From: a virus | IMG/VR virus record: IMGVR_UViG_3300048016_000141 | Location: 1-26,228 of that record | Length of the DNA: 26,228 nt | Reading direction: 5' to 3' (one strand) | Shown: positions 2,238 to 10,386 of the stretch, piece after piece | Layout: every line of letters starts with the position of its first letter | Numbering within the stretch: the first letter of the stretch is position 1 | The notes under the pieces: model-generated | Databases searched by the model: none | Seen by the model: only the letters and a program-made list of their open reading frames with translations | What the model was told of the DNA's origin: nothing | Position numbers and translations under genes: made by a program

Positions 2238-5200
2238 ATGCGGCAAATCCCACGACTTCTCATCAAGGCCGACGCAATTCCGGCTGACGCCCACTGGATC
2301 ACAGTCCATCCAAACGGCCCCGGGTCGAAGGGTCAGGCCGTGCTCATCCAGCCGCACCCGGATGGCTCTGCTCGCGTCATTGGTGGCGCTGGCGGCAGCT
2401 TGAACTACCTCAAGCTGCGAGGCGTTAAATCGCACTCTGATTACAAGGCTGAAGCCGGGAAAAAGGCCGCCGATAAGCGTGTTGCACGCAAAGAACAAAC
2501 CGCCGCTGACAAAGCCGCCGGCATCCATGGTGCCAAGGAGCAGGTCCGCAAGGACATTGCAGAGCAGCGCAAGAAGGCCGAGCAGTCGGTTATCAGCGCC
2601 GTCGCCAAAAAGGCAGGCTGGGCTCCCGAGGACATGGAGTTCCCCGAGGCCGACTACGAGCATTTATCCGAATCAGCGCGCGACAAGGTGCGGTCAAAAT
2701 TCCACCGCGACCTGCTCAGCAAGGCCAAGGAGGTAATCCAGCAGAGCCGTCAAATGCTGGTGATAAGCCCCGCCGCGCGTGAAGAGGCCGGCGTTGGCGA
2801 GGTTCCGCTGTTCTCCGATTCGCCTGATGAGGTGTCTGCCGCCGACCTTGACCCTGTTCGTCCGGTTGGTGCTGGGCTGGGGTTCCAAGCCGACTACAAA
2901 GGTCGTGCCGAGGCTGCCGGGCTGTCGCAGGAGAATCTCGAAGCCGAAGCGGCCGAAGTGAAAACGGGCGGCATGACGCCCGAGCAGCGCCAGAAGGCAC
3001 TGGCAAAAGGCGACGCCGCCAAACTAATCAAACAGGAGCTGGCTGGCATCAAGGAGCCCGCTGCACCAAAGGCTGACGCCAGCCTGATTTCCGCCAAGGA
3101 CGCCCTCGATCTGGTGAAGGAGGGCAAGAAGCTCGCACTCATCGAAAAGGCCGCCCGAGAGGCCAACGCCGACGTGGACAAGTCACCCGTGGAGCCCAAG
3201 GCATTCGTGCTGGAGACTACGGACGACGTGGACGCTTCGGTGCAGGAAGACCTCAAGAACGACCTACGCACCGCTCAGACCCGCGCTTTTCTGTCCGAAG
3301 TTGGCAAAATCGCAGGGGCTCAGCCAAACGAGACCTTGGGTGGGCACATGGGCGTTGGGGCGTACAACAGCATCAACGCACTGGCTATGGCCGTGGGTGG
3401 TGACGCCCTCGTGGATCGCTCCGTGGTGGACGTGCTGGGTGTGGCTGGCGCCGCTCAGGTGCTGGCGCGCCGCCTGCACTCCGACCTCAATCCTGACGAG
3501 GTTCAGCACGTCGCCGAGGGCATCCAGGACTGGCACGTCAACCACTACATGGCCACCAGCACCAAGGCGCTGAAGCAAGCGCGGGAGCTGACCGACGCCG
3601 CGGCCGCCATCGACCTCTCGGACGAGGCCAAAACAGGCGCCGACCTAGCGGTGGCCCAAGAGCTGAATTCGCGCCGCCGCGCTGCCGTCGGGGATGCTCA
3701 GCGCATCTTGGGGCAGGCATTGGGCGAGATGGAGGCGAACGCCGCACTGGTGGTTGCCATGAAAGGCCCGGGTTCCGGCGACTTTCAGGTATCCCTTGGC
3801 AACACGTCGCCCGAGGCTGCGATCACGCAGGTTCGGGCGATTGGGCTCCAGCCCGGCGACTACGAGCTGGAGAAAGTCGGTGGCGACACATTCCTCACCG
3901 TCACGCCTGCTGGCATGGCGCGCCTTGCCAAGCCCGTTGCGCGCGAGGACATTGCCCAAGTGCGGCGCAATCTGGCAATCATGCGCGGCGACCACGACGA
4001 GGACGGCTGGCTACCCATGGGCGTCGCCAATCGGCCCGACATGGTCATGGACGTGAAGTCTGGCGTGGCCGAGCGCATGGCGCAGCCGTTCCAGCCTGGT
4101 GAAGACCTGCAGGCCAGCCTGAAGACCTATATTGGGGCGCGGGCCGCAGACGGCGACGCTCCAGCCGACATCCTGTCCGACGTTCAATCCGCCGACTTCT
4201 TCCAAAAGGTCGGGGCAGGGCGCACGGAGGAATACCGCGCTGCGCTGGACGCCGTGGCCCCACTCAAGGGCGCGGACGGCAAGCAGCAGCGCGCTGAGGC
4301 GCTGGCTGACACCTTCGATAAATACGCCGACAGCCACGTGGCCGCCTTGGGAGGCGAGCGCACCACGCTCAACCGGCAGAAATTCCAGATTGACCAGCAC
4401 TCTGTGGACGCGCTCCACCGTGCGCTGGCGGAAACCCCAGAGGGCACCGCCGCCTACAAGCAAATCGGCGAGCTGACCAACAAGGACCAATCTGCCCTGC
4501 GCGAGCATTTTTACCGCCACATCGCCCGTGAGGACGCCGCCGCTGGTGCCATGCGCAAGGAGCTGGAGGAACACATCGCCGGCGAGCCCGAGAAAGAGTC
4601 TACCGATATGTTCGGGGACACTGTGCCCAACCCTGATTGGCAGGACTGGAAAACGCACCGCGACGGCATGGCTGCCAAGCTCAACGCCAGCAGCCTCACG
4701 TGGTCCAAGTACCTCAAGACAATGGGCGGCAACGAGCGTGCCTACGAAGCCGTGCAGGACGTTATTCGCTCGAAGATGGCCAGCTCGTTTATCGACGCCC
4801 ACAACAAGCTCAACCCGGACGCGCCCATGAAGCTGGGCAAGCGCACCATCCGAAACAACCTCAACCACTTGGACGCCGTTGACCCAGCCGCCCGCGAGGC
4901 TCGGCTGGCAAAGGACAAAGAGCTGGTGGACCGGCTGCGCAACCGGGTGGGTGGCAAGTATTCCAGCGGCTCAGTTGCCGACAAGATTGACGCCGCCAAG
5001 CAGGAGCAGGCCGCGTTTGAGCAGGCGCAGATGGGGTTCTTTTCGTCCGAGGACGCACCGGAGTCCACTGGACCCGGTCAGGACGGCGCTCCCGTGCCGC
5101 TGGGGGCTGACGAGCGCCACACCTTGGGGCACGCCGCCGAGCGGCAGATTGCGGCCATGGTGGGCCACGTTGGCGAGAATTTCAAACCCGGCCAGCCCAC

Positions 5201-6788
5201 GAAGCTATGGGGCGTATCCATGTCGGGCAAGTACGCCGCCCAGCAGCGCGCGATCAAGCTGGTAGCAGCCAATAAGCGCGCCATGCTGGCCGCCGGTGCC
5301 GGGTCAGGCAAAACCAACATGATGCTCGGTTCCCACGCGCACCTGTCTGGCATGGGAAAGGTCAAGCGGTCGATCATGATGGTGCCATCCGTCGTGCAGG
5401 GCCAATTCTCCGGCGAGGCATTGCGCCTGCTGGAACCCGGCAAGTTCAAGACCCACATTCAGCCCGGGGCGAGCCAGTCCGAGCGCATCGCAGCCTACAA
5501 GGACGCCGGCACGCACATTTGCGTCATGACCCACCAATCCTTCCGCGACGACATGGTGCACCTCGGCGCCAAGCACGCCGGAATTGACGAAGGCGCCATG
5601 ACGGCGAAGCTGCAGAGTATGAGCACCGACCAGCGGCGCGATTGGGCGGCTGGCGTGATGGGGAAAGAGGGTATCAACTTCGACGCTTCGTTTGTGGACG
5701 AGTCCCACGACACACTAAACCGGGCGGGGAAGGAAAATTCCAGCCTGGCCAACGTCATCGAGGCGGTCGGCCACCACACACCGTACCACGTGCTCTCGTC
5801 AGGCGACCCGGTAAAGAACGACGCCAGCGAGATTCACTCGATGCTGCAAAAGATGGACCCCAGCCGCTACGGCGACCGGGCGGCCTTCATGCGCCGCTAT
5901 GGCGCTGACACCATCGCCAGCAAGGAGGCGCTGCAGCGGGAAATGGCCCGCTACGTGTTCCCGACCTCCATCACGCCCGACGTCGCCGTCAGCCGCAGCA
6001 CGGAGACCGTGCCGCTGTCCAAGGGGCAGCAACAGGCTCTTGGTGAGCTCGACAAGCACCTGGCCCGCGCTCGCCTGGCGCAGCGCGCTGGCAAGGTGGA
6101 CGTGGAGGCCGTGCGCCACATCTCGCCCGGTTCGTTTGATGGTGTTCCCGAGGCGGAGCACGAGGCCGTGGCCGCCAAGCTGCAGAAGGCCGTGGGCATG
6201 CTCAAGTCGTCGGCGGTGAACCGCGTTATCAACACCCACCCCGACAACGCCAAGGTGCAGCGCGCCGTGGAGATGGTGCAGGCGCGGCCGGGCAAGCAGG
6301 GCGTGATCTTCGCCCGCAACCGCGAGGCCGTCAGCCAGTACAAGGCAGCCATGGAGAAGGCCGGGCGCAAGGTAGTGGTCATCACAGGCAGCGACAGCGC
6401 CAAGGAAAAAGACGCCAAGCGCCGAATGTTCAACCCGGAGCAGGGTGAGGCGCAAGCCGACGTGTTGATTGCGTCCGATGCTGGTGCCGTGGGCATGAAC
6501 CTGCAATCGGGCCAGTTCCTGATCCAGCACGATATCAGCCAGACGGCCAAGACGCACAGCCAGCGGAATGCCCGCATTCACCGCCTGGGGCAGAAGAATG
6601 GCGTGGAGCTGATCGACCTGCAGGGTGACCACCCGGAGGAACGCCGCAGCCGCGAGCGACTGGACCGCAAGTACGGACTCAAGAATATGATGGCTTCGCC
6701 GCTGGATGGGCTTGACGATACTGGCGTGGCTGGTGCCATTGCGGCCCGGCGCGCGGCAGCGCAGTCCGACCAGCAGGGTTTGTTTTGA
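2238..6788 (+). CDS. Giant polyvalent protein with C-terminal SNF2/DEAD-like helicase
   Basis: This is the largest gene of the window (1516 residues). The C-terminal third is a superfamily 2 helicase of SNF2 type: Walker A GAGSGKT at residues 1020-1026, Walker B/motif II DESH at 1154-1157, a motif V region (VGMNLQS) near residue 1416, and motif VI QRNARIHRLGQ at 1442-1452, a pattern typical of SNF2 proteins. The first 60 residues contain an HPNG...KGQAVLI...GGAGGSLNYLKLRG segment, a pattern I associate with phage head-region proteins, followed by a Lys/Ala/Glu-rich helical stretch. Residues 120-1000 are not recognised. It lies in the head cluster under its own promoter. By analogy with P1 DarB, a helicase-containing antirestriction protein carried in the capsid, it may be packaged and injected with the DNA to protect or process it. 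That role is inference; the helicase domain is clear. SNF2 proteins use ATP to move along double-stranded DNA. Confidence 0.85.
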   Translation: MRQIPRLLIKADAIPADAHWITVHPNGPGSKGQAVLIQPHPDGSARVIGGAGGSLNYLKLRGVKSHSDYKAEAGKKAADKRVARKEQTAADKAAGIHGAKEQVRKDIAEQRKKAEQSVISAVAKKAGWAPEDMEFPEADYEHLSESARDKVRSKFHRDLLSKAKEVIQQSRQMLVISPAAREEAGVGEVPLFSDSPDEVSAADLDPVRPVGAGLGFQADYKGRAEAAGLSQENLEAEAAEVKTGGMTPEQRQKALAKGDAAKLIKQELAGIKEPAAPKADASLISAKDALDLVKEGKKLALIEKAAREANADVDKSPVEPKAFVLETTDDVDASVQEDLKNDLRTAQTRAFLSEVGKIAGAQPNETLGGHMGVGAYNSINALAMAVGGDALVDRSVVDVLGVAGAAQVLARRLHSDLNPDEVQHVAEGIQDWHVNHYMATSTKALKQARELTDAAAAIDLSDEAKTGADLAVAQELNSRRRAAVGDAQRILGQALGEMEANAALVVAMKGPGSGDFQVSLGNTSPEAAITQVRAIGLQPGDYELEKVGGDTFLTVTPAGMARLAKPVAREDIAQVRRNLAIMRGDHDEDGWLPMGVANRPDMVMDVKSGVAERMAQPFQPGEDLQASLKTYIGARAADGDAPADILSDVQSADFFQKVGAGRTEEYRAALDAVAPLKGADGKQQRAEALADTFDKYADSHVAALGGERTTLNRQKFQIDQHSVDALHRALAETPEGTAAYKQIGELTNKDQSALREHFYRHIAREDAAAGAMRKELEEHIAGEPEKESTDMFGDTVPNPDWQDWKTHRDGMAAKLNASSLTWSKYLKTMGGNERAYEAVQDVIRSKMASSFIDAHNKLNPDAPMKLGKRTIRNNLNHLDAVDPAAREARLAKDKELVDRLRNRVGGKYSSGSVADKIDAAKQEQAAFEQAQMGFFSSEDAPESTGPGQDGAPVPLGADERHTLGHAAERQIAAMVGHVGENFKPGQPTKLWGVSMSGKYAAQQRAIKLVAANKRAMLAAGAGSGKTNMMLGSHAHLSGMGKVKRSIMMVPSVVQGQFSGEALRLLEPGKFKTHIQPGASQSERIAAYKDAGTHICVMTHQSFRDDMVHLGAKHAGIDEGAMTAKLQSMSTDQRRDWAAGVMGKEGINFDASFVDESHDTLNRAGKENSSLANVIEAVGHHTPYHVLSSGDPVKNDASEIHSMLQKMDPSRYGDRAAFMRRYGADTIASKEALQREMARYVFPTSITPDVAVSRSTETVPLSKGQQQALGELDKHLARARLAQRAGKVDVEAVRHISPGSFDGVPEAEHEAVAAKLQKAVGMLKSSAVNRVINTHPDNAKVQRAVEMVQARPGKQGVIFARNREAVSQYKAAMEKAGRKVVVITGSDSAKEKDAKRRMFNPEQGEAQADVLIASDAGAVGMNLQSGQFLIQHDISQTAKTHSQRNARIHRLGQKNGVELIDLQGDHPEERRSRERLDRKYGLKNMMASPLDGLDDTGVAGAIAARRAAAQSDQQGLF

Positions 6789-6802: not shown

Positions 6803-6997
6803 ATGAGAACTCTTGCCGCACTAATCCTTGCATTCGCCGCAACCGGCGCAGTCGCCAATACCAGCGCCTGCTACAACATCCAGGACGCCGACGCCCGCAC
6901 TATGTGTCTGGCGCGAGCCCACCGGGAGCCTAGCCAGTGCTACTCGATCCAGCGGGCCGACCTTCGGTCGCAGTGTCTCGCTGAGGTGCGCAAATGA
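6803..6997 (+). CDS. Small exported protein with duplicated Cys motif
   Basis: The 64-residue protein has a signal peptide (MR, then a hydrophobic run to about residue 18, cleavage probably after AVA). The mature part is two copies of one motif, C-Y-x-I-Q-x-A-D-x-R-x-x-C-L-A, at residues 23-37 and 46-60, each with two Cys 12 residues apart (23/35 and 46/58). Disulfide-linked helical hairpins in the periplasm are a reasonable guess. GAGG at 6787-6790 is a distant ribosome site (12-nt spacing) and overlaps the stop of the helicase gene. The stop overlaps the next start (ATGA). Its function is unknown; an effect on the host envelope is possible. Confidence 0.65.
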   Translation: MRTLAALILAFAATGAVANTSACYNIQDADARTMCLARAHREPSQCYSIQRADLRSQCLAEVRK

Positions 6998-7251
6998 AGA
7001 AGCACATCGAGAACACCCGGGCTCACTTGGGTGAGCTGCACAGCCTGGCCGCCAAGACCGAGGCCGCCGAGCGCCGCATCCTGCAAAGCGCAACGTCCCG
7101 TCTTGACGAGGTGAATGCCGCCATCGAGCGCCTGCACCCCGGCGTCGAGACTGCACCCGATGCGTCGCAGGAGCGCTATCTGTCCCTAATTAATGAACGC
7201 GGCCAACTCGGCACCGTTATTGCGAAGGCACGGCAGGCGTTGGGCGAGTAA
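6994..7251 (+). CDS. Small helical protein of unknown function
   Basis: The 85-residue protein is rich in Ala, Glu, Arg and Leu and looks like two long helices with coiled-coil character (residues 1-45 and 58-83) split by a HPGVETAPD turn. It starts inside the stop of the exported-protein gene (ATGA overlap), so the two are translationally coupled and end the operon that begins with the helicase gene. No family is recognised. A short GC hairpin (7255-7259/7264-7268) follows but has no T tract. Confidence 0.6.
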   Translation: MKKHIENTRAHLGELHSLAAKTEAAERRILQSATSRLDEVNAAIERLHPGVETAPDASQERYLSLINERGQLGTVIAKARQALGE

Positions 7252-7298: not shown

Positions 7299-8207
7299 AT
7301 GACCAGCGAAGCGCAGCTGATTGCGGACCTCCCCGATTACCTCAGTATCGAAATGATGCTGAAAGCCACGCCTGCTCAGGAAGGCGGGAGTCGATTCGTC
7401 TATCTGGAGGCTTCCCGCGAGGCGCGAGACCAGCAGAACGAGATTGTTCTGGCAAAGGCTCTTGAAGAGTCGGCCGGGCACTACCTCAAGTTCGGTAACA
7501 TCGACCTCGACCACAAATCAATGCCAGCCGTCGCCAAGATGTACGGCATCGACAACCCAGAGCACTGGGAAATCGGCACGCCAGTTGATGTCCGTGTGAG
7601 CGGCGCATCTACCTTCGTGAAGGCTCAACTCTTTACCGGCGACACGCCACTAGCCAAGCGCGCAAATGAGGTGTGGGACAGCATGACGAAGCTGAGCCCG
7701 CCCCGCAAGTGGTACCCCAGCGTTGGCGGCAAGGTGTTAGCCAAGTCCACCCGCATCGACCCCGATACCGGCGACCGCGTTGGCGTCGTCAGTGGCGTGC
7801 GTTGGACAAACATCGCACTTAGCCAGCACCCGGTGAATCAAACCGTCGGTGGTGTGTCTACGATCCCTTTCGGTGTCCTGGCGAAGTCCTGGGGCGCGGG
7901 CGGCTTCGATATGGCCAAAGCCCTCGAAGCCTCTTACGCCACGGATGCCACAGCAAAAACCGGCGGAGCCGCTCTGACCACTCAGTCCTTGGACGGTGGG
8001 TCGCGCTCCCCGAAGTCATATTTCGACTTTCGTGAACGTCTCGCGGCCGCCGTCAAAAGCGGCAAGGTCAGCGACACGTCTGCGAATGGCTTGATGCACT
8101 ACAGCGCAGAAGCCTTCGTGCTCTCGCTCGATGAGTCGGCCGAGTGGGTGGATCGCTTTCTAGGTGATCTAAAATCAGGTCTTTCCAAAAACCGGAGAAT
8201 TAAATGA
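7299..8207 (+). CDS. Probable prohead (capsid maturation) protease
   Basis: The 302-residue protein resembles HK97-type prohead serine proteases. An N-terminal beta-rich domain carries D-L-D-H-K with candidate catalytic His72, then GTPVDVRV and a W-Y-P-S-V-G-G motif with candidate nucleophile Ser141. That His-then-Ser order is typical of the family. Residues 190-300 form a Ser/Gly/Ala-rich linker and a helical tail, which may interact with the scaffold. It would cleave the scaffold and capsid N terminus during maturation. Position supports the call: it is directly upstream of a scaffold-like gene and the capsid gene. ATG 7299 is supported by the promoter motif 22 nt upstream. The stop overlaps the next start. 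Confidence 0.65.
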   Translation: MTSEAQLIADLPDYLSIEMMLKATPAQEGGSRFVYLEASREARDQQNEIVLAKALEESAGHYLKFGNIDLDHKSMPAVAKMYGIDNPEHWEIGTPVDVRVSGASTFVKAQLFTGDTPLAKRANEVWDSMTKLSPPRKWYPSVGGKVLAKSTRIDPDTGDRVGVVSGVRWTNIALSQHPVNQTVGGVSTIPFGVLAKSWGAGGFDMAKALEASYATDATAKTGGAALTTQSLDGGSRSPKSYFDFRERLAAAVKSGKVSDTSANGLMHYSAEAFVLSLDESAEWVDRFLGDLKSGLSKNRRIK

Positions 8208-8839
8208 GCAAGAACTTTGAAGCGCTCCTTGAAGAGCTTGGTGCCATTAGCACCGAAACCGACACGATGGCCAAGGCTATCGCTGAGCCACCTGTTCCCG
8301 TCGAAGATGAAGACGACGAGGATGGTGACGACGCCGCAATTGCAGCAGCTGCCGCTGATGGTGGCGTCGCTGCCCCTGCAGCCGCTGGCGACAAACCAGA
8401 CTTTGGCAAATCTTTCGCGTTCACCGACGAGTCTGGCGCAAGCCATGAAGCCGTCGATGCCACCGATCTGGTGAAGTCCCTAATGGAACGCCAGACCCAG
8501 TCCGATGATGTACTGGCTAAAGCGTTGAACTCTTTTAGTACCGTCGTGCGCAAGCAAGGCGACATGATCAAGTCGTTGTCTGCCCAAGTGGCCAGTCTCT
8601 CGTCACAAGGTCGCGGCCGCAAAGCCATGCTGACCATGATCGAGAAGCCCGCCATCGGCGACACGATGGCCAAGGCCAATGCTGACGCGGGTATCTCGCC
8701 CGAGCAGTTTTTCGCCAAGGCTAATGCAGCTTTCGATGCCGGGAAGATCAGCGGCAAAGAACTCAATGTGGTGAGCGTTAGCTTACGCGGCAATCACCCA
8801 ATTGAGCCGGGCTTGATCCAAAAGATCGCCCTCGCCTGA
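8204..8839 (+). CDS. Scaffold-like protein upstream of the capsid gene
   Basis: The 211-residue protein has the make-up of a scaffolding protein. It has a helical start, a very acidic stretch at residues 33-44 (EDEDDEDGDD), an Ala-rich linker, a helical region at 85-130 likely to form a coiled coil (DLVKSLMERQTQSDDVLAK), and a Lys/Ala-rich C-terminal part (residues 137-211). The gene lies between the protease and the capsid gene, where scaffold genes usually lie. GGAG at 8193-8196 precedes the ATG, which overlaps the stop of the protease gene (ATGA). The scaffold role is inferred from composition and position, not from a recognised domain. Confidence 0.6.
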   Translation: MSKNFEALLEELGAISTETDTMAKAIAEPPVPVEDEDDEDGDDAAIAAAAADGGVAAPAAAGDKPDFGKSFAFTDESGASHEAVDATDLVKSLMERQTQSDDVLAKALNSFSTVVRKQGDMIKSLSAQVASLSSQGRGRKAMLTMIEKPAIGDTMAKANADAGISPEQFFAKANAAFDAGKISGKELNVVSVSLRGNHPIEPGLIQKIALA

Positions 8840-8877: not shown

Positions 8878-10386
8878 ATGGACGCTCAAACCTTGATGCA
8901 GCAGTTTGCGGGCATGGCCCCCGGCGGCAGCAATCCCTCCCTCGGCGCCTCTATGGGCGGCTCTTTGGACGCCATGGGCGATCTGAAGAAGGCCCTCGAA
9001 GCCAGCTCGTACCAGACCGACGTTTCCACCCTGACCGGTGGTGGCGCTCTGGGCGTGCAGTCTTTGGACACCGCCATGAAGACCACCATTCAGGAGCAGG
9101 AACACTTCGTGTTGTTCAAGCGCTTGCAGCAGACCAACGCGACTAACATCGTTGACGAGTACACCCGCCAGACTGGCATCGGTGGATTCCTCGGCGGTTC
9201 GACCAACTCCCAGATGGGTGTTGTTCGCTCAGCTCAGGGCGAGTACAGCCGTGAAGTTGGCATGGTCAAGTTCCTGATGACTTTGCGCCAGGTCGGCTAC
9301 GTGCTGAACATCGGCAAGAACATCGTGGAAGCCACCGCTGTGGAAGAGCGCAACGGCGCCCTGCAGTTGATGACCGACGCTGAGTACCTGTTGTTCTACG
9401 GAAACAGCAAGGCTTGCCCAACCGAGTTCGATGGCATCTTTGCCCAGATCGAAGCGGAAATCGAAGCCGGCAATGTGCCTGATTCCAACGTCGTGGACAT
9501 GCAGGGCCTGCCCCTGAATTCCGTGGAGCCTTTTGCCAAGATCAACGCTTCGGTGTTTGACTATGGTTCTTGGGGCCGCATCACCGACGTGTTCATGCCT
9601 ACTGCTGTGCAGACTGACTTGAACATGGGTCTGGACCCCGCATTCCGCTGGAGCCCAGATGGTGGCAACCAGAACATGGCAGTCGGCGCTCACGTGTCCG
9701 GCATTCGCCTGACCGAAGGCGTGTTGAAGACCAACATCGACACGTTCCTGCACCACGCAGACTTCGTGATGTCCAAGCCGTTCGAGGTGTCGCAGCCCGC
9801 ATTGGCCACGGCTAACAACACGTTCAAGCCTGCCGCAATTGGTGTTCTCGCCACAGCCGACGACGCAGCCAGCCAGTTCACCGCGCCTCGCGCTGGTAAC
9901 TACTACTACGCCGTCGCCGGCGTGGGCGGCGCTGGTCAGGGTCAGTCCACCATCCTGAAGTCCGGCCAGATCGCCGTGGCTGCAGGCAAGAAGGCTGTCG
10001 TGACTATCACTGTGTCCGCATCCGGCACCGAGACTGGCTACGCGATCTATCGCGGCCGCCAGAATGGTACCGACGGTACCAGCGACCTGCGCTTGGTGAA
10101 AATCATCCCCCGCACTGGTGCATCGACCGTGTTTACCGATTTGAACCGCGACATCCCTGGTACTTGCAAGGTGCCAGTGTTGAACCTGGCTCAGTCGGCT
10201 GATGCAATCGGATGGCGCCAGTTCCAGCCGATGACCAAGATTCCATTGCCTTTCGGCGTGGGTGGCGTGCCAGTGCAATCGTGGTTCCAGTTCCTCTTCG
10301 GTTTCCTGCGTGTGACCAAGCCGAAACATCATGGTTTCGTGAAGAATATTCTTCCCGCAACTAGCACATGGCGTCCGCACGGCTGA
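8878..10386 (+). CDS. Major capsid protein with Ig-like insertion
   Basis: The 502-residue protein is the likely HK97-fold shell protein. Its Gly/Met-rich N-terminal 50 residues could be a region removed on maturation. The central part (residues 60-300) contains segments such as QEHFVLFKRLQQTNATNIVDEY and NGALQLMTDAEYLLFYGNS, typical of a group of large phage capsid proteins. Residues about 315-427 are an inserted beta domain of Ig/fibronectin type (GNYYYAVAGVGG, TVSASGTETGYAIYRG, TVFTDLNRDIPGT), probably displayed on the capsid surface. The chain then returns to the core. A good ribosome site (AAGGA near 8868) precedes ATG 8878. A strong terminator follows the gene. Confidence 0.85.
   Translation: MDAQTLMQQFAGMAPGGSNPSLGASMGGSLDAMGDLKKALEASSYQTDVSTLTGGGALGVQSLDTAMKTTIQEQEHFVLFKRLQQTNATNIVDEYTRQTGIGGFLGGSTNSQMGVVRSAQGEYSREVGMVKFLMTLRQVGYVLNIGKNIVEATAVEERNGALQLMTDAEYLLFYGNSKACPTEFDGIFAQIEAEIEAGNVPDSNVVDMQGLPLNSVEPFAKINASVFDYGSWGRITDVFMPTAVQTDLNMGLDPAFRWSPDGGNQNMAVGAHVSGIRLTEGVLKTNIDTFLHHADFVMSKPFEVSQPALATANNTFKPAAIGVLATADDAASQFTAPRAGNYYYAVAGVGGAGQGQSTILKSGQIAVAAGKKAVVTITVSASGTETGYAIYRGRQNGTDGTSDLRLVKIIPRTGASTVFTDLNRDIPGTCKVPVLNLAQSADAIGWRQFQPMTKIPLPFGVGGVPVQSWFQFLFGFLRVTKPKHHGFVKNILPATSTWRPHG

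Follow-up and report, generated by a model that had tools for sequence, protein, structure and literature searches.

A giant SNF2-type helicase is encoded among the head genes of the phage sequence studied here, and the question is whether such a protein serves the cell that produces it or travels in the virion. The window, by which we mean the whole stretch analyzed, comprises 26,228 nt (positions 1–26,228 of IMG/VR record IMGVR_UViG_3300048016_000141) and is contained, with identical sequence, in a 93-kb IMG/VR phage record (G003).

The helicase gene and its N-terminal region

The gene (2238–6788, + strand) is an intact open reading frame that starts with ATG and encodes 1516 amino acids. 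A profile search places residues 5–1500 in PHROG 62, "DNA helicase" (E = 3.4e-202). An SF2 helicase of the SNF2 type makes up the C-terminal third: Pfam reports Helicase_C (1.3e-12) and, marginally, SNF2-rel_dom (25.5 bits; cut-off, 24.9), and the best-scoring solved structures are SNF2 remodellers. Motifs I (GAGSGKT, residues 1020–1026; 5295–5315, +), II (DESH, residues 1154–1157; 5697–5708, +), and VI (QRNARIHRLGQ, residues 1442–1452; 6561–6593, +) are conserved in relatives from Bordetella phage to Thermus phage, and the principal catalytic residues vary little or not at all down to 31% identity. By these motifs and by the SNF2 core, the protein is an SF2/SNF2-type ATPase, so that the 1516-residue protein with intact helicase motifs described in the original prediction is confirmed. 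Values of dN/dS are between 0.03 and 0.18 in the helicase part and the N-terminal part alike, which indicates purifying selection on both.

No Pfam domain is found within residues 1–950. An AlphaFold model of the N-terminal part, built from 57 relatives (mean pLDDT, 76; pTM, 0.46), has low-confidence or disordered residues 1–11, a small beta domain at residues 19–55 that is conserved in relatives (WITVHPNG...GGAGGxLN; 2292–2402, +), and a mainly alpha-helical region of no known fold at residues about 66–950 (2433–5087, +). At a threshold of E ≤ 0.001, Foldseek found no match to the model in PDB or BFVD, and the conserved N-terminal domain has no convincing copy in the other proteins of related loci. 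The original prediction had left about 900 residues without an assigned function and had proposed AlphaFold modelling of the N-terminal residues; the model now supplies a helical region and a beta domain, and neither Pfam nor the fold search assigns them.

Gene order and a late-promoter-type element

The helicase gene does lie among head genes, as had been claimed. Upstream is a minor head protein with weak PHROG portal/minor head matches (666–1823, +). Downstream follow s64, s85 (6994–7251, +; 85 amino acids with weak coiled-coil-type matches, directly downstream of the helicase in most loci), the prohead (head maturation) protease (7299–8207, +), a scaffold-like protein named from its position and composition (8204–8839, +), and a major capsid protein (MCP) of the SPO1 type (8878–10386, +). 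Among 80 non-redundant related loci, 66 have enough downstream sequence; the protease lies at most 1.3 kb downstream of the helicase in 45 of these and at most 6.5 kb downstream in 55. A minor head protein is found upstream in 30 of 41 loci. In the Thermus phage Lalka27a, the helicase homolog lies among tail genes instead of head genes.

Two other features lie upstream. An AraC-type regulator (PF12833, 8e-24) is encoded at 1804–2199 (−), between the minor head and helicase genes. Positions 1–640 are non-coding and rich in inverted repeats (540 nt give a predicted −235 kcal/mol, a value without shuffled control), and the stretch is partly common to two sister phages. Rfam reports no family at gathering score over the window, this stretch included; some relatives have, by eye, a seemingly tRNA-like sequence at this location.

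A late promoter had only been asserted for the helicase. We find a candidate in the late-promoter-type element GTCGTGACCGTATCCT (2216–2231, +), whose box starts 22 nt before the helicase ATG and which is common to other late genes. The 16-bp element GTCGTGAYN3ANNMT occurs in the window at 644 (minor head gene), 2216, 7277 (protease gene), 10850, 13483, and 22529, mostly with a near-fixed spacing of 22 nt to the start codon. G003 has 13 copies of the full element (GTCG[TC]GA[CT]N3ANN[AC]T), always on the late strand, against 0.37 copies expected from shuffled sequence; they precede the portal, minor head, helicase, protease, and WGR + ADP-ribosyltransferase genes, among others. Across loci, the box GTCG[TC]GA[CT] stands 22 (21–24) nt before an in-frame start codon at 57 of 92 helicase genes, 61 of 78 protease genes, and 23 of 53 minor head genes; at the same spacing it precedes none of 70 scaffold genes. 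With a box at −22, a −10-like stretch, and the ATG, the layout seems to resemble a P1-type late promoter, and we infer that late mRNAs across the phage group are leaderless. Late co-regulation of the helicase with the head genes is supported at the sequence level.

G003 encodes a second helicase, of the ResIII type, outside the late block (L028:12339–15005, −), and we count its separate existence in favor of the reading, argued below, that the late helicase is capsid cargo. The ResIII-type gene is itself interrupted by an intein with a homing-endonuclease domain. By inspection, G003 also encodes an integrase-like protein and has a large fiber-like gene block between the portal and minor head genes (reverse complement 56202–64415, L025–L029).

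A motif common to head proteins and cargo-type proteins

Many helicase and DarB homologs open with three to four hydrophobic residues and then K[AS]. The motif was first spotted in these starts, and head and control families were tested later, by searching the first 60 residues, family by family, for [LIVMF]xK[AS] (LxK[AS] for short; shuffled means, 3–8), a short regular expression of which single matches mean little. The families hold related sequences, so that the counts are of non-independent events: among head proteins, the motif is present in 50/52 MCPs, 50/53 proteases, 49/53 scaffolds, and 33/39 minor head proteins; it is present in 55/64 helicases and 23/28 DarB proteins, and in the control neighboring families in 3/57 (s85), 1/48 (g116), 3/39 (g364), and 0/39 (g213). 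The proteins of the window carry it as LYKA at residue 22 (minor head protein), as MLKA and LAKA (protease), at seven sites (scaffold-like protein), and as LKK38/A39 (MCP, where K38 is invariant in 42 relatives); the s85 protein of the window is without it. In the helicase, the match to the site lies at LIK10/A11, near the N-terminus (residues 8–11; codons at 2259–2270, +).

The distribution is similar in named relatives. In PHB04 and Mecenats66, the portal, scaffold, MCP, and cargo-type proteins carry LxK[AS], while it is absent from sheath and tube of both phages and from the terminase of Mecenats66. The Mecenats66 minor head protein is also without it, and a few tail proteins of the two phages have a single, chance-like match. 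In the Thermus phage Cumys, scaffold, MCP, and helicase have the motif; the protease has none in its first 60 residues. A comparison within G003 (9/9 against 6/71, Fisher) involves a group that was partly chosen by the motif, and we do not rely on it.

Solved capsids indicate what the motif is. A 439-residue MCP chain (9row) aligns with the phi812 MCP (463 residues, 5lii) starting at the residue that follows K24. The longest resolved SPO1 MCP chain has 445 of 468 residues, the length expected from A24; the phi812 and SPO1 residue numbers derive from lengths and alignments, not from coordinates. Because the phi812-type MCP chain begins exactly after that lysine, LxK/[AS] is very probably where the prohead protease of this head lineage cuts. 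In HK97, too, cleavage follows a lysine, at K103/S104 (PMC10275583). The SPO1 scaffold gp3.3 (L114:3928–4662) contains 11 [LIVMF]xK[AS] sites, which suggests that the Herelleviridae protease has the same specificity as that of the present phage group; the SPO1 protease has five. Since unrelated families have the same site and the capsid relatives are solved, the simplest reading of LIK10/A11 is that the helicase, too, would be a prohead-protease substrate.

The motif keeps its place relative to the helicase rather than to the start of the chain. In 55/55 N-terminal cases and 21/22 internal ones it lies immediately ahead of the helicase module, compared with 6.6% of random windows, the internal copies adjoining the conserved beta domain and helicase module even in N-extended relatives. 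This position, with K10 just ahead of the beta domain in the window protein, could also mean that the motif is a mere structural feature of that domain with no connection to the protease. We think this unlikely: residues 1–11 are of low confidence in the AlphaFold model, the MCP relative begins right after the motif, and the unrelated DarB, InPase, ART, zeta-type, and NUDIX proteins carry a similar short N-terminal motif.

The N-extended relatives bear on the protease reading in another way. In several of them, InPase or ART-PolyVal domains occupy the added part, and 21 of 22 extended members keep the motif directly ahead of the helicase module, an arrangement that cleavage of fused cargo into separate proteins would predict. 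A similar motif opens the stand-alone InPase, InPase-ART, and zeta-type proteins; a short hydrophobic-K-[AS] start is common to SNF2 helicase, DarB, ADP-ribosyltransferase, InPase, zeta-type, and NUDIX proteins. Of 61 related loci with enough flank, 27 contain a DarB-type gene, which is adjacent to the helicase in 23. Tentatively, and with somewhat more reserve than for the helicase itself, we suggest that in SPO1-type heads LxK/[AS] may be a modular signal that both directs proteins to the prohead and releases them, fused cargo polyproteins being cut at internal copies inside the head. If so, the motif would reveal the injected protein set of the whole lineage from sequence. A second capsid cargo protein is predicted in G003, the WGR + ADP-ribosyltransferase protein; it has 1436 amino acids (L027:8472–12782, −) and the N-terminus MNTPRLILLLKS.

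Predicted role and comparison with known systems

We consider it probable that the helicase is capsid-internal cargo, as the original prediction of a packaged and injected protein had proposed; the late element, the protease-type site, the polyvalent fusions, and the DarB neighbors all favor this as a prediction. A DNA-translocating SNF2-type ATPase would be made late, together with the head proteins, and enclosed in the prohead, where the prohead protease would trim it at LIK10/A11. It would leave the capsid with the genome into the new host, track along the incoming double-stranded DNA, and most likely displace or block host proteins, above all restriction enzymes. We infer packaging from late co-regulation together with membership in the processing-site group, a membership that the sequences support and the solved capsid relatives back. 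Ejection and DNA protection are proposed by analogy with P1 DarB, and ejection and the clearing or blocking of host proteins also by analogy with polyvalent proteins, with anti-restriction as a putative part of this role. Points that weigh against the cargo reading are the tail-gene location of the homolog in a Thermus phage, the Cumys protease start without the motif, the 950 N-terminal residues that match no fold, and the absence of DarB from G003. We found no virion proteomics or mass spectrometry for any family member, the Mecenats66 and Thermus papers included.

The late element and the position among head genes are equally compatible with a helicase that acts late in the producing cell, outside the virion, on recombination intermediates or the packaging substrate. 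T4 UvsW is such a late-expressed SF2 helicase outside the virion; the earlier argument, that replication hardly accounts for a helicase expressed late, is therefore no proof of packaging. A role in the producing cell nevertheless seems improbable here, for it leaves unexplained both the ART/InPase fusions and a protease-type site that is common to MCP, scaffold, and DarB and absent from neighboring families.

The main alternative to anti-restriction is a packaged helicase that mainly serves DNA entry or genome organization, by pulling or remodelling. A double-stranded DNA translocase inside the head could do such work, and the family occurs without DarB, as in the window phage: DarB is absent from six IMG/VR records of the phage group, G003 among them, so that a helicase-methylase dyad is not needed. 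We hold this role to be possible, though clearly less likely than action against host proteins, since the neighbors and fusion partners of the family are typical anti-host enzymes (ART, InPase, DarB, and zeta toxin).

Ejected cargo, our preferred reading, makes a concrete prediction for a protein so far annotated only as a helicase: it should be present in virions with the mature N-terminus ADAIP.... The sequence rule may identify capsid cargo across a large phage group with SPO1-related heads, and methylase-free SNF2 motors may form, next to DarB, a second class of DNA-handling proteins that are injected.

The PHROG 62 helicases of PHB04 (Bordetella), Mecenats66 (Morganella), and Lalka and Cumys (Thermus) belong to the same family over most of their length, with 31–62% identity, and those of PHB04, Mecenats66, and Cumys have the same late position. 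As far as the annotations of the PHROG 62 phage records go, the protein is a helicase or a hypothetical protein, and they propose no virion role or processing site for it.

P1 DarB is likewise a giant phage SNF2-type protein; it sits in the P1 head and has an N-terminal targeting signal, its 30 N-terminal residues directing a reporter to the capsid (PMC9024508). The DarB N-terminus is without LxK[AS], and the P1 MCP is cut at E120/S121. We considered whether the window helicase is a DarB ortholog minus its methylase, since both are SNF2-type, late, and often neighbors, and rejected this as very improbable. The N6-adenine methylase of P1 and PHB04 DarB has no Pfam match in the window helicase; the DarB PHROGs 1685, 11801, and 10089, all matched by PHB04 DarB, are not reported for it; the two proteins fall in separate PHROGs; and genomes such as PHB04 encode both. 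The earlier phrase "like P1 DarB" thus holds at most for a similar action: the window helicase has no methylase and is of a different family, and DarB is a separate gene in relatives.

Polyvalent proteins (Iyer et al. 2017, PMC5512222) also include SNF2 ATPases, together with ART-PolyVal and InPase-type domains. Some helicase relatives are true multidomain fusions of this kind, with at least two effector domains per chain; the window helicase has one recognized enzymatic domain. In T4 and SPN3US, too, the prohead protease trims head and internal proteins as the head matures (PMC10052503). The SPN3US protease cuts after A-X-E, whereas the site proposed here, LxK/[AS], is that of SPO1-type heads and resembles that of HK97.
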